From assembly GCA_030550515.1 (NCBI GenBank), contig JAUQPE010000028.1, positions 1 to 64,000 on the forward strand: a DNA stretch of 64,000 nucleotides, read 5' to 3'. Shown piece by piece: positions 16,458-25,960 of this stretch. Each line of letters opens with the position of its first letter. Position 1 is the stretch's first letter. The stretch is from Thermotogota bacterium (GTDB lineage Bacteria; Thermotogota; Thermotogae; Thermotogales; Thermotogaceae). The translations under genes were made by a program, and so were the position numbers. Below the pieces are notes generated by a model. The model made no database searches. It was given only the letters and a program-made list of their open reading frames with translations, and had not been told where the DNA came from.

Positions 16458-17215
16458 GGGTCTCCGTGTTGGGAGCGGGATGCATAGGTGGTTCTCTGGC
16501 TTTGAAGTTGAGAAGAGACTTCGAGGTGAGGGTCTTCGACGTGGACGAGGATGTGAGGTCTTCTCTCAAAAGTGAAGGAATCGTAGTTGTAGACCGCCCG
16601 GAAGATCTCTACGACTCGGACCTGCTCGTCCTTGCGGTACCCATGAGCGAAGAAGAGCGATTTCTCAAGGAGACGAGCTTTTCCGGTTTGATGATGGACG
16701 TGGCGAGCGTCAAAACGCCCTTCGTGAGGATCGCGCGGGAGAGAGGTCTCAAACTCGTCGGTGGCCATCCGATGGCGGGCAACGAGAAGAAGGGAAAGGC
16801 CGGTTGGGATCCGAACATGTTCGAAGGGAGACCCTTCTTCCTGTGCGGTCTGGATGGAAGGAGAGTGGAGATCGCTGAGGAAGTCGTGAGGAAGACCGGC
16901 GCCGTTCCCGTTTGGTTGGATCCGGAAGAGCACGACGAGATCGTGGCCGCCGTCAGTCACGTTCAGTACCTGTTATCGCTTGCTGGCAAGTTTGTGGGAA
17001 AGGCGTACGAAGACTTCGCTGGGCCAGGTTACAAATCCACGACGAGGCTCGCCCACCAGAACGTTCAAATGGCCCTCGACATGATGCGGTACAATAGAGA
17101 CAACGTCCTAAAAAACTTGAAAGTGGTGCTCTCTTTCCTGAAAGAAGTGGAATGCACGATAGATGGTGGGGATATGGAACGCCTGGAAAAGCTGATAAGG
17201 GAAGTGATAACGTGA
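16454..17215 (+). CDS. tyrA: Prephenate dehydrogenase
   Basis: NAD(P)-dependent oxidative decarboxylation of prephenate to 4-hydroxyphenylpyruvate, on the tyrosine branch. 253 aa. The Rossmann motif [13 protein letters not shown] is at residue 7. [19 protein letters not shown], and [17 protein letters not shown] carry the conserved Ser, His and Arg/His positions of the family. It has no fused chorismate mutase or ACT domain. Start TTG 16454 inside the aroF stop (TTGA, 4-nt overlap), and it is similarly coupled to aroA downstream. Confidence 0.93.
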
Positions 17216-18474
17216 AGCTGGTTCCGGTGAGAAAGGTGAGGGGAGAGATCTCCGTTCCAACGGACAAGTCCATCACCCACAGGGCCTTGATCTTCGCGGC
17301 GCTCGCCGAAGGGGAGAGTACCCTGTACAACCTCCTCAGGTGCTTGGACACGGAGAGGACGAAGGACGTACTGGAAAAACTCGGAACCAAGTTTGAAGGC
17401 GATTGGACGAAGATGAAGGTGACCCCCGGTGTTTTTCGAACGCCCACCGAACCTCTCTTCTGCGGCAACTCCGGCACCACCACGAGGCTCATGGCGGGCG
17501 TGATCGCGTCGCACGAGATCTTCGCCGTTCTCTACGGCGACGATTCGCTCTCCAGAAGACCCATGGCGAGGGTCATGGAACCGTTAGGGATGATGGGGGC
17601 GAAGTTCCTCGCGCGCGAGAACAACTTTCTGCCCATGGCGATCCAAGGTGGAAGGCTGAAGGGCATAGAGTACGAGTCCAAGGTTGCCAGCGCCCAAGTC
17701 AAGAGCGCGGTGATCATCGCGGGGCTGAGGGCCGAGGGGAAGACGACGGTGGAAGAACCCGTCAAGAGCAGAGACCACACCGAGAGGATGTTGAAGAAAC
17801 TGGGTGCTTCCATTCAGGAAGAGGGGAACAGGGTCACCGTCTGGCCTTCCTCGATCAAGGGGTTCACCATGGAAATCCCAGGTGACGTGTCTTCCGCTTC
17901 CTTCTTCGTGGCTCTTGGGGTCATCCATCCGAACGCCAGGATCGTCGTCAGGGGAGTGGGTTTGAACGAAACGAGGATAGGATTTCTCAAGACGCTCAAG
18001 CTCATGGGAGCGAACGTGGAGTGGCGGGTGGAGAACGAAGATGTGGAACCTATCGGCACCATCGTCGCTGAGAGTTCGCCGAACTTGCGTGGAATAGAAG
18101 TTCCCGTCGAGATGATACCCTCCATGATAGACGAAGTTCCCCTTCTGGCACTCGTTGGGGTGTTTGCGGAAGGTGAAACCGTCGTCAAAGGCGCCGAGGA
18201 GCTGAGGAAGAAGGAATCCGACAGGATACGGGTGGTGGTGGAAAACTTCAGGCGCTTGGGCGTCACGATCGAGGAGTTCCCTGACGGTTTCAGGGTGGTC
18301 GGGAGGCAGAGGATAAGGGGAGGCGTCGTGGATCCAGAGGGCGACCACAGGATGGCCATGATGTTCTCGCTGGCGGGGCTTTTGAGTGAGGAGGGGGTGG
18401 AAGTGAAGGACCACGAGTGCGTTTCCGTGTCTTTCCCGGAATTTTATGGGATACTCGAGAAGGTGATAGCGTGA
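17212..18474 (+). CDS. aroA: 3-phosphoshikimate 1-carboxyvinyltransferase (EPSP synthase)
   Basis: Transfers the enolpyruvyl group of PEP to shikimate 3-phosphate. 420 aa, normal length. Visible motifs are [19 protein letters not shown] (phosphate and shikimate binding), [27 protein letters not shown], and the C-terminal KESDRI and DHRMAMM. GTG at 17212 overlaps the tyrA stop (GTGA). The sequence motif NSGTTTR with Thr rather than Ala after NSG is of the class II type. Confidence 0.96.
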
Positions 18475-19232
18475 AGTTCTGCATCGTGGGTTACCCTGTC
18501 AGGCACAGCATCTCTCCTAGGCTCTACAACGAGTACTTCAGGTTGTTGAACATGCCTCACTTCTACGACTTTGCCGAGATAGCCCCAGATGTCTTCGACG
18601 AGGAAATAAAGAGGGTTCTGAGCGAATGTGATGGTTTCAACGTCACCATACCACACAAAGAGAGGATCATTCCCTACGTGGAACCCACCAAGGAGGCAAC
18701 CAAGATCCAAGCTGTGAACTGTGTGCACGGGAGAAAAGGTTACAACACGGACTGGATCGGCGTGCTGATGTCTCTGGAGGGAACGAGTGTGGAAGAACCT
18801 GTACTCGTCATCGGAGCTGGAGGAACAGCCCGTGCGTTGCTGTACGCGCTACTGGAGATGGGAATCAGGGACATCACCGTCACCAACAGGACACTCGATC
18901 GCGCCAAAAGCCTTGGCTTCCCGGTGAAGGTGGTTCCCTTTGAACGCTTGAAGGAGTCGGTGAGAAACTCCAAGAGCTTGTTCAACACCACCTCCGTCGG
19001 GATGAAGGGAGAGAGGTTCGACCTTTCCGAGGAAGATCTGGCCAACCTCTCCTTGGTCTACGACGTGATCTACTTCGAAACGCCACTTTTGGACCTCGCG
19101 CGACGTGCGGGTGTGAGGCACGTTGTGAGGGGTAACCTCATGTTCTACTACCAGGCCATGGAGAACCTGAAGATATGGGGTCTCTACGACGACGAGACTT
19201 TCAAAAAAGTCTTCGGGGAGGTCCTCTCATGA
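18471..19232 (+). CDS. aroE: Shikimate 5-dehydrogenase
   Basis: NADPH-dependent reduction of 3-dehydroshikimate. 253 aa. Shikimate-binding SISP is in [14 protein letters not shown]. The catalytic Lys is in [10 protein letters not shown] and the paired Asp is in YNTDWIGV. The nucleotide loop is [15 protein letters not shown], followed by VTNRT. GTG 18471 overlaps the aroA stop by 4 nt. The frame is open further upstream but only as a shadow of aroA. Confidence 0.96.
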
Positions 19233-20359
19233 GGCTGACGATCTCCGGGGATTCGCACGGAAAGTACATCGTGGTGGTCTTGGAAGGGTTCCCGGCTGGC
19301 TTCAGGGTGAACGAGCAGAAGGTGGCGAGAGACCTCGAAAGGAGGAGGAACTGCTTTGGAAGAGGCCAGCGCATGAAGCTGGAGGCGGACGAGTTCGAGG
19401 TGGTCTCCGGGGTGTGGAAAGGTGTGACCACGGGGGCGCCGATCACCATCCTCGTCCAAAACAAGGCGGGCAACCCGGTGAAGGAAGTGAGGAGCGTTCC
19501 AAGGCCAGGGCACGTGGACTACGCCGCGTGGATGAGGTATAGACTCCCCGACTTGAACGTGTACGTGGAGCGGGCGAGCGCCAGGTGGACCGTGGGATTG
19601 GTGGCCGTTGGGTCCCTCTTGAAAGACTTCTTGGAGCAGTTCGGGATCAGGATAGTTGGTTTCGTCACCGCGCTTGGCCGTGTGGAGTTGAGGGAGGTTC
19701 CCACCGACTTCGACGAGCTGGTGAGGAGGAGGGACGAGTCTCCCGTCCTCTGCCCGGACCCAAAGGCCACTGAAGAGATGGTGAGGGAGGTAGAAGAGGC
19801 GAGGAATCGAGGTGACACCCTCGGTGGGAAGGTGAGGGTGATCGCAAGAAACGTCCCAGCAGGGCTCGGCGGCTATTCCAACTTCTTCGAAAAACTCGAT
19901 TCCAAGATAGGGGCGATGTTCTTGGCCATCCCCGCGGTGAAAGGCATCCTCATCGGCGAGGAAGAATTGTCCTACGGTCTCTCCTATCTCGACGAGTTCT
20001 GCGTGGAGGATGGAAGGGCGAGGAGGAAGACCAACAGGCTTGGAGGGATAGAGGGAGGGATCAGCAACGGTGAGGACATCGTCGTGAACGTCTTTGTGAA
20101 ACCGATACCCACGACGGGTACCCCACTTCAGTCTGTGGACCTCAGAACTTTGGAGCCAGCAGAATCGCCTTACGTGAGATCGGATGTCACGGCCGTCCCT
20201 CCCGCCTCGGTGGTGTGCGAAGCGGCACTGGCTGTCGTGCTCGCCGATGCCTTGCTCGAACGCTACGGGAACGACAACTTCGAAGATCTGAAGAGGAGGT
20301 TCCAAGATGAAGGTGTTCCTCGTTGGGATGATGGGTTCTGGGAAGAGCACGGTGGGTAG
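19229..20359 (+). CDS. aroC: Chorismate synthase
   Basis: FMN-dependent 1,4-elimination of EPSP to chorismate. 376 aa. Motifs include GDSHG at the start ([14 protein letters not shown]), RRRNCFGRGQRMKLEADEFEVVSGV, GNPVKEVRSVPRPGHVDYAAWM and the C-terminal RSDVTAVPPASVV. The histidine in the opening GDSHG and His in RPGHVD are the conserved catalytic ones. ATG 19229 overlaps the aroE stop (ATGA). The 3' end runs 53 nt into aroK in a different frame, the longest overlap in the operon; the last 17 residues are therefore shared coding space. Confidence 0.96.
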   Translation: MRLTISGDSHGKYIVVVLEGFPAGFRVNEQKVARDLERRRNCFGRGQRMKLEADEFEVVSGVWKGVTTGAPITILVQNKAGNPVKEVRSVPRPGHVDYAAWMRYRLPDLNVYVERASARWTVGLVAVGSLLKDFLEQFGIRIVGFVTALGRVELREVPTDFDELVRRRDESPVLCPDPKATEEMVREVEEARNRGDTLGGKVRVIARNVPAGLGGYSNFFEKLDSKIGAMFLAIPAVKGILIGEEELSYGLSYLDEFCVEDGRARRKTNRLGGIEGGISNGEDIVVNVFVKPIPTTGTPLQSVDLRTLEPAESPYVRSDVTAVPPASVVCEAALAVVLADALLERYGNDNFEDLKRRFQDEGVPRWDDGFWEEHGG

Positions 20360-21788
20360 GAGGTTGGCAGGGATCCTTGGGATGGAGTTCGTCGACATGG
20401 ACGAGGAGATAGAGAAGAGGAAGGGAAAACGCGTGAGGGAGATCTTCGAGGAAGAGGGCGAGCGGACCTTCAGGGAACTCGAGAAGAGACTCTTGAGGGA
20501 GCTGTTGGCGAAAGACAACGTCGTCGTGGCGACGGGTGGAGGCGTGGTTCTAGACCGCGAGAACAGAGAGCTCCTCAAGAAGGAAAAGACGATTTTCCTG
20601 TACGCACCTCCTTCCGTGCTCTTGGAGAGGGTGGATGTGAGGAACAGACCCCTCCTCAAGGATGGAAAGGAGAGGATCTACGAGATCTGGGAAAAGAGAA
20701 AAGCCTTCTACGAGGAGTTCGAGAGGGTGGACACCACGAACCTGAACGAGTGGGAGACCTGCGCAGTGGTCGTCTTGAAAGTCCTCGAAGAAAGGGAGGT
20801 CCTGAACCTGAAAGAACCTCATCCCCTCAGCGTCGTCGTCGGTGGGTTCAAACGGGTGAAGAAAGAAGACTTGGTCTTCACGACGTGGAGGGTGGAGAAG
20901 ATCTTCGAAGGGTTCCTCCCAGAGAGGAGGATCGCGTTTCCCGACGGGGAAGAAGTGAAAACGTTGGAATGGGTCGCCAAGGCGTATTCTGCGCTCGTCG
21001 AGATGGACTTTCCGCGGGGAAAGACGATCGCCGGTGTCGGGGGAGGTGCTCTGACCGATTTTACGGGTTTTGTCGCGAGCACCTTCAAGCGCGGTACTGG
21101 CCTTTCCTTTTATCCCACCACACTTCTCGCCCAAGTCGACGCCTCGGTGGGAGGGAAGAACGCCATAGATTTCGCCGGCGTGAAGAACGTGGTTGGTACT
21201 TTCAGGATGCCGGACGACGTGTTGATAGATCCAGCCGTCACCGTCTCCATGGACCAGGGGCGCTTCGAAGAGGGTGTGGTCGAAGCGCTCAAGATGGTCG
21301 TGATCTCCGGTAGGGGTGTGGAACTCTTCGATGACGTGAGAAAGATCACGCAGGAGAGGAACTTGGAGGTTTTGACCGAACTTGTGAGACTTTCCGTGGA
21401 GGAGAAGGCCCGTGTGGTGCGGGAAGACCCGCACGACAAAGGGTTCAGACACGTGTTGAACCTGGGGCACACGCTGGGACACGTCTTTGAGATGTTGACC
21501 GGGGTGTCGCACGGTCTGGCTGTGGCTTGGGGTTTGGAGAGGGAGGCCTTCTTCTCTTGGAAGAGAGGCCTCACGTCCAAAGAGGTCTACGATTGGATTC
21601 TCGAGAAGGTCCTCCAGATAGCACCCGGTTTGGTGGGAGAGAGGATCGACCGAGAACAGGCCAAAAAACTCATCTTGAACGACAAAAAGATCGCAACTTC
21701 CAAGGTGAGGTTCCCATATCCGAGGAGGATGGGTGAGGTAGACTTTTTGGAGGTGGATCCCCTCGAACTTCTGGAGGTGGTCGCGTGA
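20307..21788 (+). CDS. aroKB: Bifunctional shikimate kinase / 3-dehydroquinate synthase
   Basis: A fusion of 493 aa. Residues 1-150 are shikimate kinase: Walker A GMMGSGKSTVGRRLA, the shikimate-binding DMDEEI, ERTFRELE, and GGGVV. From about residue 165 the protein is dehydroquinate synthase: GVGGGALTDFTGFVASTFKRGT (NAD-binding), PTTLLAQVDASVGGKNAID, NLGHTLGHVFE and LNDKKI, with conserved metal His residues. The same fusion occurs in the Thermotoga maritima aro operon. Start ATG 20307 behind GAGGAGG inside aroC. It couples to aroQ by a 4-nt overlap. Confidence 0.95.
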   Translation: MKVFLVGMMGSGKSTVGRRLAGILGMEFVDMDEEIEKRKGKRVREIFEEEGERTFRELEKRLLRELLAKDNVVVATGGGVVLDRENRELLKKEKTIFLYAPPSVLLERVDVRNRPLLKDGKERIYEIWEKRKAFYEEFERVDTTNLNEWETCAVVVLKVLEEREVLNLKEPHPLSVVVGGFKRVKKEDLVFTTWRVEKIFEGFLPERRIAFPDGEEVKTLEWVAKAYSALVEMDFPRGKTIAGVGGGALTDFTGFVASTFKRGTGLSFYPTTLLAQVDASVGGKNAIDFAGVKNVVGTFRMPDDVLIDPAVTVSMDQGRFEEGVVEALKMVVISGRGVELFDDVRKITQERNLEVLTELVRLSVEEKARVVREDPHDKGFRHVLNLGHTLGHVFEMLTGVSHGLAVAWGLEREAFFSWKRGLTSKEVYDWILEKVLQIAPGLVGERIDREQAKKLILNDKKIATSKVRFPYPRRMGEVDFLEVDPLELLEVVA

Positions 21789-22219
21789 AGATTCTGGTGA
21801 TAAACGGTCCGAACTTGAACATGCTGGGGAAGAGGGACAGGAGCGTTTACGGCGCGCAGAGCTATCAAGACCTCGTTGGAAAGTTGAACGAGTGGGCGGA
21901 GGAAAACGGGGTGGATTTGGAGGTGTTCCAGTCGAACTCTGAAGGAGAAATCGTGGACAGGATACACAGGATGGACTACGACGGCTTGGTGATAAACCCG
22001 GGTGCCTTCACGCACTACAGTTACGCCATCAGGGACGCGCTCGAGATCGTGAAGGTTCCGAAGGTGGAGGTGCACATCTCGAACATCCACGCGAGGGAGG
22101 AGTTCAGAAGGAGGAGCGTCACGGCGGAAGTCTGCGACGGCCAGATCAGCGGGCTTGGGGTGTTCGGTTACCTGTTGGCGCTGGAATACGTGAGGAGAAA
22201 GGTGAGGAGGGAGATCTGA
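21785..22219 (+). CDS. aroQ: 3-dehydroquinate dehydratase, type II
   Basis: Dehydrates 3-dehydroquinate to 3-dehydroshikimate. 144 aa, a type II dodecameric enzyme. NGPNLNMLGKRDRSVYG carries the catalytic Arg and Tyr loop. QSNSEGEIVDRIH, INPGAFTHYSYAIRDAL (with the usual Pro-Gly-Ala and His) and EVHISNIHAREEFRRRS complete the active site. GTG 21785 overlaps aroB's stop. It is the last enzyme needed to make the pathway complete within this operon. Confidence 0.96.
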   Translation: MKILVINGPNLNMLGKRDRSVYGAQSYQDLVGKLNEWAEENGVDLEVFQSNSEGEIVDRIHRMDYDGLVINPGAFTHYSYAIRDALEIVKVPKVEVHISNIHAREEFRRRSVTAEVCDGQISGLGVFGYLLALEYVRRKVRREI

Positions 22220-22222
22220 GGG

Positions 22223-22807
22223 ATGGAGAGTTTCAAAACGGTTAAGGATCGCGTCGAAACGAAACTCAACGTGGAGAGGTCGCTGTTCATAACCAACCTT
22301 GCGCCGGTGGAGGACGAACGACGAGCGAAGGAGTTCGTGGCCGAGGTGTCGAAAAAGTACAGGGACGCCACCCACAACTGCTACGCCTACCGCGTTCTCT
22401 CGAAATCCAATCTGGTCGAGTTCTGCTCGGACGCGGGGGAGCCGGCCGGTACGGCGGGTCTTCCCATCCTGAACACCCTCAGAAGGTACCAACTTGTCAA
22501 CGTAGCCGTCGTCGTGAGCAGGTACTTTGGCGGGGTGAAGTTGGGTGTGAGGGGTCTCATCGAAGCGTACACGAAGAGTGCGGAAGAAGCCGTAGTGAAG
22601 GCTTCAATTGTGGAGAAGCACAAGGCTTACAAGTACAGGTTGAGGTTGGATTTCGCCGAGTACGGCAAGAGGATGAATCAACTCCAGAGGTTGGGGGCGA
22701 TCGTGACGAGCATCACTTACCTGGAAGACCACGTTCTCCTCGAGATCCTGAGTTTTTCCGATCTGAACCTTCCAAACGCGGAAGAAACGGAAGTAGTTTA
22801 CATATGA
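22223..22807 (+). CDS. YigZ/IMPACT family protein
   Basis: 194 aa. The N-terminal UPF0029 domain shows the family signature: KKYRDATHNCYAYR, FCSDAGEPAGTAGLPIL and VVSRYFGGVKLGVRGLIEAYTKSAEEA. The C-terminal half (YKYRLRLDFAEYGKRMNQLQRLGAIV) is the DUF1949-type RNA-binding-like domain. The molecular function is unknown; a link to translation or stress has been proposed for the family. ATG 22223 starts 3 bases after the aroQ stop, so it is probably the last gene of the aro transcript. The -10 of the following fluoride-responsive unit overlaps its stop codon. Confidence 0.9.
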   Translation: MESFKTVKDRVETKLNVERSLFITNLAPVEDERRAKEFVAEVSKKYRDATHNCYAYRVLSKSNLVEFCSDAGEPAGTAGLPILNTLRRYQLVNVAVVVSRYFGGVKLGVRGLIEAYTKSAEEAVVKASIVEKHKAYKYRLRLDFAEYGKRMNQLQRLGAIVTSITYLEDHVLLEILSFSDLNLPNAEETEVVYI

Positions 22808-22813
22808 TATAAT
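22805..22813 (+). promoter_or_regulatory. Extended -10 promoter of the fluoride-riboswitch unit
   Basis: TG-A-TATAAT: a perfect TATAAT at 22808-22813 preceded by the TGn extension. No good -35 is seen 17 bases upstream. Expected start is near 22820, about 20 nt before the aptamer. Confidence 0.7.
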
Positions 22814-22840
22814 TGGGACGAGGTCAAGTGAATGAGAGAA

Positions 22841-22916
22841 GGGCGATGAGGCTCGCCCAAACCGCCCGGAGAGGGCTGATAGCCTCTACTGGTCGAAAGA
22901 TCAGAGAGGCTTTTTT
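22841..22916 (+). ncRNA. Fluoride riboswitch (crcB motif) with terminator expression platform
   Basis: The aptamer 22841-22891 is nearly the Thermotoga petrophila fluoride aptamer. Hairpin GGGCG (22841-22845)/CGCCC (22854-22858), then AAACC, hairpin GCCC (22864-22867)/GGGC (22873-22876), CTGAT, and CTCTACTG. The pseudoknot pairs GAGGCT (22848-22853) with AGCCTC (22881-22886). Compared with the T. petrophila sequence as I recall it, both strands of this helix have changed compatibly. AGCCTCT (22881-22887) also pairs with AGAGGCT (22905-22911) in a long terminator hairpin (inner CTGGTC-GAAA-GATCAG) followed by TTTTTT. Fluoride binding should lock the pseudoknot, block the terminator and turn the downstream MutS-like genes on. 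Confidence 0.95.
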
Positions 22917-22940
22917 ATTTTTCTTGAGGAGGGAGTGGCG

Positions 22941-24461
22941 TTGTTCCCAAGCGTTCTGTTCAAGGATGCGAAAGCCCTCGAAAGTGTGAAAGTATCGGAA
23001 GAGGCCTTCGAAGACCTCTTCCTGGGACGGTTGATAGACCTGACGGTTAAGGGTAGGGAGAGGTACGATCTGAAACCGTTCTTCACGATGCCCGTCCGAG
23101 ACGAGGAAACCATAGTCTACAGACAGGAGGTGGCAAGGGACCTGGAAGATCCCGAGGTTCGAAAGGTCGTGTTGGAGTTCTCGAAAGGCATGGTGGCGGT
23201 CCACCAATACCTTCAGATGCTGGAGAGGTTGGACTACGAGTACAACAAGAAGGGATGGTTTTTGGAAGCCGTCCTCGAGTACTGCAGGACGGTCAAGGTG
23301 TTCTCCGAGTCCCTCGAGAGGGTGGGCTTGCGTTCGGAGGGATTGAAGAGGATCAGAGAGTACCTGATAGGTTATGCGAGATCTCCGGAGTTTTCATCCC
23401 TCTTCGAGGAGGCCCTTCGGGTGAAGGAAGGACTTTCTCGGGTGAGGTACTGTCTCATCGTGGAACCTGGGAAGTTCAGTGTGAAGCCCTACAAGGGCGA
23501 GAAAGACTACGCCGTTGAAATTGAAGCGTTCTTCTCAAAGTTCAAGGAAGAGGATCGAATCGGTGAGTATTCCTTCGACCTGGTCAAGGGAATTGGCATG
23601 AGCCACGTCGAAGCGAAGATCCTGGACTTTGTGAGAAGGTTGTATCCGGAACCGTTTGAGGAGTTGGACACGTTCTGCGAAAACCATCGCGGTTTCCTGG
23701 ACGAGGTGATCTTGAACTTCGAGAGAGAGGTACAGTTCTTCTTGGCCTACCTGGACTTCATCGAACCTTTGAGGGAGAGAGGTCTTCCTTTCTGCTATCC
23801 AGAAGTTCGCACCTCCGTAAGGGACGAGTTCGTGGAGGACGGGTTCGACCTGATGTTGGTCCACAGCTTGACGGGGAAGATCGTCACCAACAGTTACCGT
23901 TTGGATGGGATAGAGAGGGTGATAGTGGTCACAGGCCCAAATCAAGGCGGCAAGACGTCCTTCGCCAGGATGGTAGGGCAGATCCATTACCTGGCCTGCC
24001 TTGGCCTTCCCGTACCCGCTCGCAGGGCCAAACTTTTCCTCGTTGACGCTGTACACACCCATTTCGAGAGGGAAGAGCACGTTCAGAACGTGAGAAGCAA
24101 GTTGGAAGACGACCTCTTGAGGATGAAGAGCATCATCGACTCCCTGACTCCCAACAGCCTCGTAATCTTGAACGAAGCGTTCTCTTCCGCCACTCTCCGC
24201 GATTCTTTGGACATAAGTTTGAGAGTGCTCGAAAAGTTATTGAAGATCGATTGTTTCGTCGTGTGGGTGACGTTCCTGGACGAACTCTCCCGAGTGAGCG
24301 AGAAGGTGGTGAGCATGGTTGCCCTCGTCTCTCCACAAGATCCAACCGTGCGGACGTTCAAGGTGGTGAGAAAGAGGGCGGACGGTCGCGCTTACGCCCT
24401 GTCGCTTGCAAGAAAGTACGGGCTCACCTACGAAGAGGTCAGGAGGAGGATACGGAGATGA
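22941..24461 (+). CDS. MutS domain V-like ATPase, first of a tandem pair
   Basis: 506 aa. The C-terminal third is a MutS-type ABC ATPase: Walker A VTGPNQGGKTSFARMVGQIHYLA (about residue 335), an ABC-like signature region KLEDDLLRMKSII, Walker B SLVILNEAFSS, and a switch region VVWVTFLDEL. The N-terminal part is helical and similar to the MutS lever/core. The mismatch-recognition domain (Phe-x-Glu) is absent, so it is not a repair MutS. TTG 22941 is chosen because AGGAGGG ends 7 bases before it; GTG 22935 is too close. It is the first gene after the fluoride riboswitch and overlaps the next by 4 nt. Confidence 0.85.
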   Translation: MFPSVLFKDAKALESVKVSEEAFEDLFLGRLIDLTVKGRERYDLKPFFTMPVRDEETIVYRQEVARDLEDPEVRKVVLEFSKGMVAVHQYLQMLERLDYEYNKKGWFLEAVLEYCRTVKVFSESLERVGLRSEGLKRIREYLIGYARSPEFSSLFEEALRVKEGLSRVRYCLIVEPGKFSVKPYKGEKDYAVEIEAFFSKFKEEDRIGEYSFDLVKGIGMSHVEAKILDFVRRLYPEPFEELDTFCENHRGFLDEVILNFEREVQFFLAYLDFIEPLRERGLPFCYPEVRTSVRDEFVEDGFDLMLVHSLTGKIVTNSYRLDGIERVIVVTGPNQGGKTSFARMVGQIHYLACLGLPVPARRAKLFLVDAVHTHFEREEHVQNVRSKLEDDLLRMKSIIDSLTPNSLVILNEAFSSATLRDSLDISLRVLEKLLKIDCFVVWVTFLDELSRVSEKVVSMVALVSPQDPTVRTFKVVRKRADGRAYALSLARKYGLTYEEVRRRIRR

Positions 24462-25960
24462 AGGTGTACCTGATGTACCCCGACAGAGACTTCAACCTAA
24501 AAAAGGAGTTACCACCTCACGCGATGGATTTGGTGAAGGATCTGGGATTCGACGTCATCGTGCAACACATGAGTCGGGGGGACGAGTTCCTCCGGAACGT
24601 GGCGATGAACGTTTTGTTCTATCCGGAAAAAGATACGAGCGTTATTCGATACAGACAGGAGATCGTGAAGGATTGTCTAGAGCATCCGGATGTTGTGAGA
24701 CGGCTTTACCAGATACCCATCAGCATAAAGGAGAGCAAGAGGAAGAGATGGTGGGGTGTGTTCGGTTGGAAAACGCCCAACAACGTGTTGAACGGTGCGC
24801 GGAACGCCTTGGAAGCCATGCTTGGGGGGTTGAAGGAACTGAGAAGGATCGCCGACGAGAACCTCGAGAAGTTTCGCTCGAGGGGTTTCAAGAGGTTTTT
24901 CGAGATGCTACAGGAAGAGCTCGACGACGAGTACCTCTCGAAGATGGGGGAACACTTGGAAAATCTGAAGTTTCAAAAGGGTGTACTGCTCAGCGTGAGG
25001 TTGGGGAAGGGGAACGAGGGAGAAGACCACACTCTGTCAAAACCCAGAGGGAAGAACTGGTTTCAGAGGATCTTCGAGAGGGAAAAGGTCTTCTCCTACA
25101 AGCTACACCCCCGCGACGAGATAGGATCGAAGGTCTTGGAATCCATCGTCAACCTAGGCTTGAAGGACATCGCCACCAACGTGGCAATCGCGGCGGACCA
25201 CGTGGAGAGCTTCTTCAACACGCTCCAGTTGGAGCTGGCCTTCTACGTTGCGTGTTTGAACCTCGTGGAAAGTCTGCGGGCGATTGGAATATCCTTCTCT
25301 TTCCCTGAGGTGTTTCCCACGAACGAAGAGAGGATAGTTTTCAGAAATCTCAAGGACATCGCTTTGGCGCTCTCTCAAGGAACGAACGTGGTGGGGAACG
25401 AGCTTGAGGCAGAAAGGAAACGGTTGTTCGTTATCATGGGAGCGAACCGTGGTGGTAAGACGACGTTTTTGAGGAGTGTGGGGCAAGCTCAGATCATGGC
25501 GCAGGCGGGCATGTTCGTTGCGGCGGAATCTTCTTCTCTCAGCATCTGTGAAGGTGTGTTCACGCACTTTAGACGCAGAGAAGACGCGAACTTGAAGAAA
25601 GGGAAGTTCGAGGAGGAGCTCGAAAGGGTCAGCAAGATGCTCGACCACGTCTCCGCGGGTTCCCTAATCTTGTTCAACGAGTCGTTCTCGTCAACGAACG
25701 AACACGAAGGCTCGGAGGTTGCCCACCAAATCGTGAAGGCCCTGATCGATAGCGGTGTGAGGGTCTTTTACGTCACCCACATGTTCGATTTAGCCAGGCG
25801 GTTCTTGGACGATGAAAAGGTCGTGTTCCTCGTGGCGGAGAGAAAAGAAAACGGTGAGAGGACGTTTAAGGTGAAGGAAGGGAAACCGACCGAGACGAGC
25901 TTTGGATTGGACCTATACCGCGAGATCTTCGAAGAGAAGGAAGAGGTTTTCCCTTCTTGA
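24458..25960 (+). CDS. MutS domain V-like ATPase, second of a tandem pair
   Basis: 500 aa, paralogous to the preceding protein. N-terminal helical region (VIRYRQEIVKDCLEHPDVVRRLY matches the partner's VYRQEVARDLEDPEVRKVV). Then the ATPase: Walker A IMGANRGGKTTFLRSVGQAQIMAQAG (about residue 330), signature-like KKGKFEEELERVSKML, Walker B SLILFNESFSSTNEHEGSEV and the switch FYVTHMFDL. ATG 24458 overlaps the first gene's stop (ATGA), so the two are co-translated. Together they could form a heterodimer (inference). Expression should follow the fluoride riboswitch. Confidence 0.85.
   Translation: MKVYLMYPDRDFNLKKELPPHAMDLVKDLGFDVIVQHMSRGDEFLRNVAMNVLFYPEKDTSVIRYRQEIVKDCLEHPDVVRRLYQIPISIKESKRKRWWGVFGWKTPNNVLNGARNALEAMLGGLKELRRIADENLEKFRSRGFKRFFEMLQEELDDEYLSKMGEHLENLKFQKGVLLSVRLGKGNEGEDHTLSKPRGKNWFQRIFEREKVFSYKLHPRDEIGSKVLESIVNLGLKDIATNVAIAADHVESFFNTLQLELAFYVACLNLVESLRAIGISFSFPEVFPTNEERIVFRNLKDIALALSQGTNVVGNELEAERKRLFVIMGANRGGKTTFLRSVGQAQIMAQAGMFVAAESSSLSICEGVFTHFRRREDANLKKGKFEEELERVSKMLDHVSAGSLILFNESFSSTNEHEGSEVAHQIVKALIDSGVRVFYVTHMFDLARRFLDDEKVVFLVAERKENGERTFKVKEGKPTETSFGLDLYREIFEEKEEVFPS

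Follow-up and report, generated by a model that had tools for sequence, protein, structure and literature searches.

In a Thermotogota bacterium, a fluoride riboswitch before a widespread pair of MutS-fold ATPase genes suggests a role in fluoride tolerance rather than in mismatch repair

Genes labelled 'DNA repair (mutS)' were linked to the crcB motif, the RNA of the fluoride riboswitch, already in 2010, and the available part of that survey proposes a stress able to damage DNA (Weinberg 2010, PMC2864571). Fluoride inhibits enolase, pyrophosphatase and kinases through active-site metal complexes, and the riboswitch-controlled genes named in the accessible text of a review (PMC11139923) are exporters, antiporters, pyrophosphatase, enolase and formate hydrogen lyase; the terms 'ATPase' and 'DNA repair' are absent from that text. 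The fluoride aptamer that was crystallised is from Thermotoga petrophila, according to the part of PMC11077080 available. Here, a stretch of 64,000 nucleotides from a Thermotogota bacterium (contig JAUQPE010000028.1, positions 1 to 64,000; the window) was analysed, in which a fluoride riboswitch stands before two MutS-fold ATPase genes, A and B. The initial annotation of this locus had stated that surveys list MutS-type genes as fluoride-associated, and this is indeed printed in the 2010 paper. The sequence evidence below makes it probable that A-B is a fluoride-induced heterodimeric remodelling ATPase, part of a fluoride-tolerance programme and not of mismatch repair. Within the literature searched, which lacks most subscription journals, no functional study of the pair was found, and in that literature the two-subunit family with its fluoride and clostridial sides, the link to T. 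petrophila, the invariant ATPase changes and the plasmid islands are new.

The aptamer (RF01734) was detected by cmscan on the forward strand at 22833-22895, over the full length of the model and with 46.6 bits (gathering score 34); it scored 73.3 bits with model R1. It is the only RF01734 match in a scan of the whole 1.61-Mb genome, where a fluoride riboswitch is expected by chance in a given 450-nt strand interval with a probability of about 1e-4. P1 is formed by GGGCG (22841-22845) and CGCCC (22854-22858), P3 by GCCC (22864-22867) and GGGC (22873-22876), and the pseudoknot by GAGGCT (22848-22853) and AGCCTC (22881-22886). The aptamer had been described as close to that of T. petrophila with a compatible change on both pseudoknot strands, which agrees with the alignment: at the last pair of the pseudoknot the window has U-A where T. 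petrophila has C-G, and the P3 loop is shorter. Over 10 aptamers 95.3% of the cells are paired, where shuffles give 89.2%, and both partners vary in 7 of the 15 pairs (shuffle mean 1.8); the pseudoknot is 100% paired, with both sides changed in 3 of its 6 pairs.

An intrinsic terminator follows on the same strand at 22881-22919, with the stem 22881-22894/22899-22911, the loop 22895-22898 and then a T-run (fold z -3.2 for a 42-nt stretch). The start of its 5′ arm (22881-22886) is the 3′ strand of the pseudoknot, and the two structures overlap as they do in T. petrophila. This overlap had been noted before together with a 13-bp stem; the overlap stands, while RNAfold gives 12 bp and one bulged A, a 13th pair (A-U) being possible. 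The bulge is perhaps why a simple terminator scan did not list the terminator. Upstream, an extended -10-like promoter element, TGATATAAT, was read by eye at 22805-22813 (forward strand); it is absent from the output of the promoter scan, which demands a -35 hexamer. The layout is that of the usual 'on' switch, with the fluoride response itself being predicted: fluoride binding would stabilise the pseudoknot and withhold the 5′ arm of the terminator, whereupon RNA polymerase would read on into the A-B operon. Control of the pair by this putative switch is well supported.

Both genes are on the forward strand. Gene A is at 22935-24461 when read from a GTG (508 codons) or at 22941-24461 from a TTG, and the spacing to GAGGAGGG favours the TTG, the start also used in the initial annotation. 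Gene B, with 500 codons at 24458-25960, overlaps A by four bases (ATGA, 24458-24461). MutS domain V (PF00488, cut-off 30.2 bits) was matched with 75.1 bits in A (residues 330-498) and 82.6 bits in B (residues 325-486). In A, Walker A is at 334-341, the Walker-B residue is Asn413 and Phe447 replaces the H-loop His; in B, Walker A is at 328-335, with Asn407 in Walker B, the H-loop His441 and a basic tip region at 165-225. Domains of the fluoride exporters CrcB (PF02537) and CLC (PF00654) were matched neither in A or B nor, in a whole-genome search, anywhere in the genome of the window, whereas the same queries matched in 10 (CrcB) and 12 (CLC) of 14 control genomes. The initial annotation of A and B as domain V-like ATPases that are not fluoride exporters is in line with these searches. 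A role in anti-phage defence was considered and rejected, as neither the window's A and B nor those of an E. coli plasmid matched any PADLOC model.

Within the family, 14 genomes together hold 6 riboswitches above the cut-off, each of which directly precedes an A-B pair. The riboswitch of T. petrophila, at 1794817-1794880 (G006:C1), stands before such a pair, and these are the coordinates published for it in the available part of PMC13273304. Since, in addition, the CrcB gene of T. petrophila is elsewhere (925666-926004) and no second riboswitch match was found in its genome, the model fluoride riboswitch naturally precedes A-B. In one respect the initial annotation was an understatement: its T. 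petrophila yardstick itself precedes the same pair, which moreover is part of fluoride islands that are widespread and in part carried by plasmids.

In a sample of 103 Thermotogota genomes, in which the pair was called by B at E ≤ 1e-60, 17 have the pair. A riboswitch is present at E ≤ 0.001 in 48 of the 103 and above the RF01734 cut-off in 42; it was found in 16 of the 17 pair-bearing genomes and in 32 of the 86 pair-less ones (p = 2e-5, with species that are not independent). The aptamer, whose absence before the pair in relatives would have counted against the proposed control, is located directly before A in 14 of the 17, ending 1543-1606 nt before B. In another genome (G104) it ends 2891 nt before B, in G077 there is no riboswitch on the contig of the pair, and in G001 the placement is not assessable, as the contig holds only part of A; a match of 23.3 bits in G001, below the cut-off and in unrelated genes, was not counted as before the pair. 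That the pair stands 'instead of' a fluoride channel holds for the genome of the window and fails as a rule, CrcB being present in 5 of the 17 pair-bearing Thermotogota and in 24 of the 50 pair-bearing genomes of another count. Replacement of CrcB by the pair was rejected, because a trend within the 14 genomes of the family (CrcB in 3 of 7 with the pair and 7 of 7 without, p = 0.07) vanished phylum-wide (5 of 17 versus 38 of 86, p = 0.29). One family member without the full pair has short pieces resembling the end of B (G002:C322:22343-22814), one of them crossed by stop codons, which are probably a remnant of the pair.

Beyond the phylum, GTDB genomes were scanned; 104 relatives were confirmed, and the best 80 of them were analysed. 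A and B are in tandem on one strand in 79 of these 80 loci; L130 is broken into pieces and L134 has one open reading frame. In a tree built from 75 B proteins, those of 74 loci plus that of the window, the sequences fall on two sides with 99% support each in the Shimodaira-Hasegawa-like approximate likelihood ratio test (SH-aLRT), 23 rows being from Clostridia and 52 from many phyla. Counted by loci, the multi-phylum side has 56, of which 4 at contig ends were not assessable, and the clostridial side 24, including L101, which was placed there according to the tree. The multi-phylum or 'fluoride' side includes Thermotogota, Chloroflexota, Spirochaetota, Campylobacterota, Thermodesulfobacteriota, Acidobacteriota, Pseudomonadota, Actinomycetota, Bacillota and Mycoplasmatota, as well as archaea (Thermoplasmatota). 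Neighbours in the tree are often not taxonomic kin, which argues for much transfer of the pair.

On the multi-phylum side, a riboswitch directly precedes A in 32 of the 52 assessable loci, 31 being called by script and L083 by hand, as the called start of the reading frame there preceded the riboswitch. In 9 loci it is elsewhere in the fetched stretch (L060, L061, L064, L065, L072, L074, L075, L076 and L084), and in the remaining 11 no fluoride riboswitch was found in that stretch. On the clostridial side the count is 0 of 24. The direct matches are also found in the Rfam listings at E ≤ 0.001 for 29 of the 32 loci (L083 being the only match of its genome, G040) and are missing there for L071, L086 and L090, of which L086 is weak (19.2 bits); at L133 the R1 match has 15.2 bits and that of Rfam 27.1, below its cut-off. 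As a label on the tree the riboswitch needs 15 changes, compared to a mean of 22.8 in shuffles, and 0 of 500 shuffles were as low. Of 50 whole genomes that hold multi-phylum loci, 41 have an RF01734 match above the cut-off, compared to the 42 of 103 in Thermotogota. Up to 14 (G062) and 10 (G051) riboswitch matches were seen in one genome, and they are often back to back on opposite strands within a few hundred bases (L078, L093, L095, L123, L136-L138, L144). The clostridial clade L105-L122, L124 and L126-L128 has no fluoride riboswitches and no constant neighbours in the loci read.

The flanks of the pair were compared for the fluoride-related genes enolase, family-I pyrophosphatase, phosphoglycerate mutase and CrcB. 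At least one of these was present at 12 of 56 multi-phylum and 0 of 24 clostridial loci, with queries drawn partly from the same loci and names taken from Pfam. First genes after other riboswitches in the fetched stretches encode a dynamin-like GTPase, enolase, NADH dehydrogenase/HycD-like proteins, an Na/H exchanger, CrcB, a major facilitator superfamily transporter, a P-type ATPase, pyrophosphatase and MetK; in this count several stretches are the same contig twice (L074/L153 and L123/L137, for example), which inflates the cluster sizes. A relative of B was found in 48 plasmid records, and all 6 of the plasmid stretches examined contain fluoride riboswitches. DNA like the pair of the E. coli plasmid is present in 34 records, from Klebsiella (20), Citrobacter (6), Enterobacter (5), Salmonella (2) and Escherichia (1), 20 of the 34 being plasmids typed as conjugative; among 5426 E. 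coli genomes, a single one has a pair of this type. The plasmids p027_SK3a of E. coli and pEL-ars1 of E. ludwigii share an arrangement in which a riboswitch is followed by a cation:proton antiporter gene, usp, A and B, and the genes converging on A-B are those for a DHHA2 protein, usp, eno, phosphoglycerate mutase, crcB and a P-type ATPase, beyond which is a gene of the chloride-channel family with its own riboswitch. In a Rhodococcus plasmid, eno and crcB adjoin A-B. The databases name several of the pair proteins 'DNA mismatch repair protein MutS'.

The closest described island is GI3 of Enterobacter cloacae FRM, a chromosomal island whose operon confers fluoride tolerance to 4,000 mg/L and has ppaC, uspA, eno, gpmA, crcB and an ATPase fragment in the same order as the plasmid island in L155 (PMC5533749, as far as available). 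Its Table 1 gives a 261-bp piece of the ATPase and no MutS-like genes, and on the plasmids A-B lie just past the ATPase. Tolerance of GI3 without the pair, the wide movement of the pair seen in a tree unlike the species relations and on plasmids, and the multi-phylum loci without a nearby switch are what would be expected if a mobile MutS-like pair had obtained a promoter and a real riboswitch by recombination of islands and had no role in fluoride tolerance. Such a passenger role is nevertheless very unlikely, considering that the switch is at the same place in 14 Thermotogota genomes, that it also stands before A in archaea, Acidobacteriota, Chloroflexota, Campylobacterota and others, and that the multi-phylum side has its own substitution in A and its own tip in B. 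Because pairs of this kind turn up beside fluoride-tolerance genes in many bacterial phyla and in some archaea, they probably help cells survive fluoride.

AlphaFold2 models of A and B were built with 49 family rows each and had mean predicted local distance difference test (pLDDT) values of 89.0 (A) and 87.0 (B) and a predicted template modelling (pTM) score of 0.85 each. The A model matched MSH2 (8omo; Z 33.3, root-mean-square deviation (rmsd) 3.5, 381 residues aligned), MutS2 (9a5o; Z 30.6) and Taq MutS, and the B model matched MSH2 (8omo; Z 30.7, rmsd 9.8, 431 aligned) and MutS2 (9a5o; Z 30.4, rmsd 4.5, 373 aligned); disome-bound MutS2 (7qv3) gave Z 28.2 for A and for B. For most A and many B rows the alignment starts at the core domain of MutS. 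In Pfam searches MutS_V was present in 49 of 49 A and 49 of 49 B rows and MutS_III weakly in 3 and 5, respectively, and no match to MutS_I or MutS_II (E 0.01), to MutS_IV or to the Smr domain was obtained in any of them. The profiles of A and B match each other with E 4.9e-56, and the two are therefore paralogues.

A-B thus shares the core and ATPase fold and Walker A with MutS, MSH2 and MSH3, but is unlike them in having no mismatch-recognition or connector domain and no MutS_IV match, as stated for mismatch recognition from the start. In addition, Asn takes the place of the Walker-B Asp in all 75 rows of A and all 75 of B, each time with Glu right after it. This appears to be the same change as D693N of E. 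coli MutS (structure 3k0s), because the Walker-B columns align with an Asp in Msh3 alignments and a table in the accessible part of PMC3848065 names D693N. The position of the H-loop His in A is Phe in 53 rows, all multi-phylum, and His in 22, all clostridial, whereas B has kept its His in 75 of 75 rows. The curated MutS1 families were missed by far, with 76 and 78 of 480 bits for NF003810 and 65 and 74 of 642 for TIGR01070. The B tip (165-225) has a mean net charge of +4.75 on the multi-phylum side compared to +0.9 on the clostridial side, and a conserved pattern that is absent from the clostridial clade; the mean for the A tip is -1.2. A-B thus resembles a clamp ATPase that is asymmetric and has lost its DNA-mismatch parts.

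The MutS fold and ATPase domain, the basic B tip and the proposal of DNA-damaging stress in the 2010 survey would suit a pair whose targets are DNA structures of another kind than mismatches and which guards or repairs the DNA of cells stressed by fluoride. This is unlikely in view of the missing matches to domains I and II and to the clamp (MutS_IV), the negative A tip, the two tip strands in the A and B models against four in the clamp of E. coli MutS (PMC3848065, available part), and the named co-regulated genes, which are mostly metabolic or for transport and include none for repair. A heterodimer resembling MutS2 (RqcU), which would split or clear ribosomes stalled by fluoride-trapped GTPases or by ATP starvation, has somewhat more in its favour and is still rather doubtful. 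MutS2 cores are among the nearest folds and, like A and B, have no domain I and a similar length, and the B tip is basic and conserved; on the other hand, A-B differs from MutS2 in being a pair of diverged paralogues without an Smr match, reaches 53 (A) and 76 (B) of the 400 bits of the curated MutS2 cut-off, and occurs in a genome that already has separate MutS1-sized and MutS2-sized frames.

Similarity of another kind was found to KamC, the lysine 5,6-aminomutase reactivase ATPase (NF052383), also a protein of about 500 aa with a MutS-like ATPase domain. B reaches 75 and A 45 bits of its cut-off of 300, with a match mostly in the ATPase domain, and six other members of the A-B family have 53-76 bits. 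No aminomutase was noticed by eye among the neighbours of the examined loci, and no search was aimed at aminomutases. In NCBIfam, KamC is another MutS-like ATPase that is named as an enzyme reactivase.

The remodelling ATPase proposed here for A-B would, once induced by fluoride, most likely assemble from the two distant paralogues as an obligate asymmetric heterodimer, a MutS-type clamp ATPase of helical core or lever and ATPase domain only, without mismatch recognition. It would remodel a cellular target jammed by fluoride. The pair itself moves between phyla, in many cases together with crcB, enolase, pyrophosphatase and further fluoride genes. As to the target, phosphoryl-transfer or Mg enzymes trapped by fluoride, on which A-B would act in the manner of a reactivase, are tentatively preferred by analogy, and a clamp on nucleic acid or ribosomes is about as likely as a reactivase. 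Several points weigh against this interpretation. The reactivase step draws on an analogy of family names with KamC, 11 of the 52 assessable multi-phylum loci have no riboswitch in the fetched stretch, and CrcB is not replaced by A-B phylum-wide. The Walker-B Asn was rejected as an adaptation to fluoride, being invariant in the clostridial clade too. Finally, the absence of a MutS-like gene from Table 1 of GI3 implies that the pair is not needed for tolerance there (PMC5533749).

Other features of the surroundings were also recorded. Upstream of the riboswitch, 17152-22807 of the window holds a cluster resembling that for aromatic amino acids (shikimate pathway) and a YigZ-like gene (by eye), and in the relatives examined the A-B unit has other surroundings than these. 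Dynamin-like GTPases are first after fluoride riboswitches in 5 different stretches (L074, at 124-1911, L142, L147, L150 and L151); the one in L074 (PF00350, E 3e-28, with a weak PADLOC match to LeoA/LeoBC) sits between riboswitch and A-B. Similar small proteins of about 140-160 aa are encoded at L065:4741-5172, L065:8733-9194 and L075:418-894, two of them as the gene immediately after a fluoride riboswitch and two immediately before enolase; that of L075, the only one scanned of the three, had no Pfam match. Related proteins of about 480-540 aa are under fluoride riboswitches at L065:2970-4421, with a weak family-I pyrophosphatase match in the N-terminal part alone, and at L060:2359-3987. HEAT-repeat-like proteins near A were found at L060:3939-4478 (confirmed by Pfam) and by eye at L096:3995-4933 and L064:30-761. 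A SAM-I/IV riboswitch at L086:5569-5687 stands before a gene that by eye is MetK-like, and the same locus contains a fluoride riboswitch as well; a weak fluoride riboswitch match (23.9 bits) at L085:2707-2771 precedes a MetK gene.

The gene name 'mutS' has been among those of fluoride-riboswitch genes since 2010, and on the present evidence its mismatch-repair label is misleading, the pair being a distinct, mobile, fluoride-linked ATPase rather than a mismatch-repair MutS. The riboswitch of the crystal structure, that of T. petrophila, naturally occupies the position before this pair. It is conceivable that A-B is the first of a class of fluoride-damage remodelling ATPases that open fluoride-trapped complexes, either enzymes locked by metal, fluoride and phosphate or ribosomes. 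If so, A-B would add a second layer of defence to that provided by export and by extra copies of enolase and pyrophosphatase, and a reactivase that frees trapped enzymes would complement the extra enzyme copies of the islands. With plasmid versions in E. coli, Citrobacter and Enterobacter, the function of the pair is within reach of a simple laboratory experiment.

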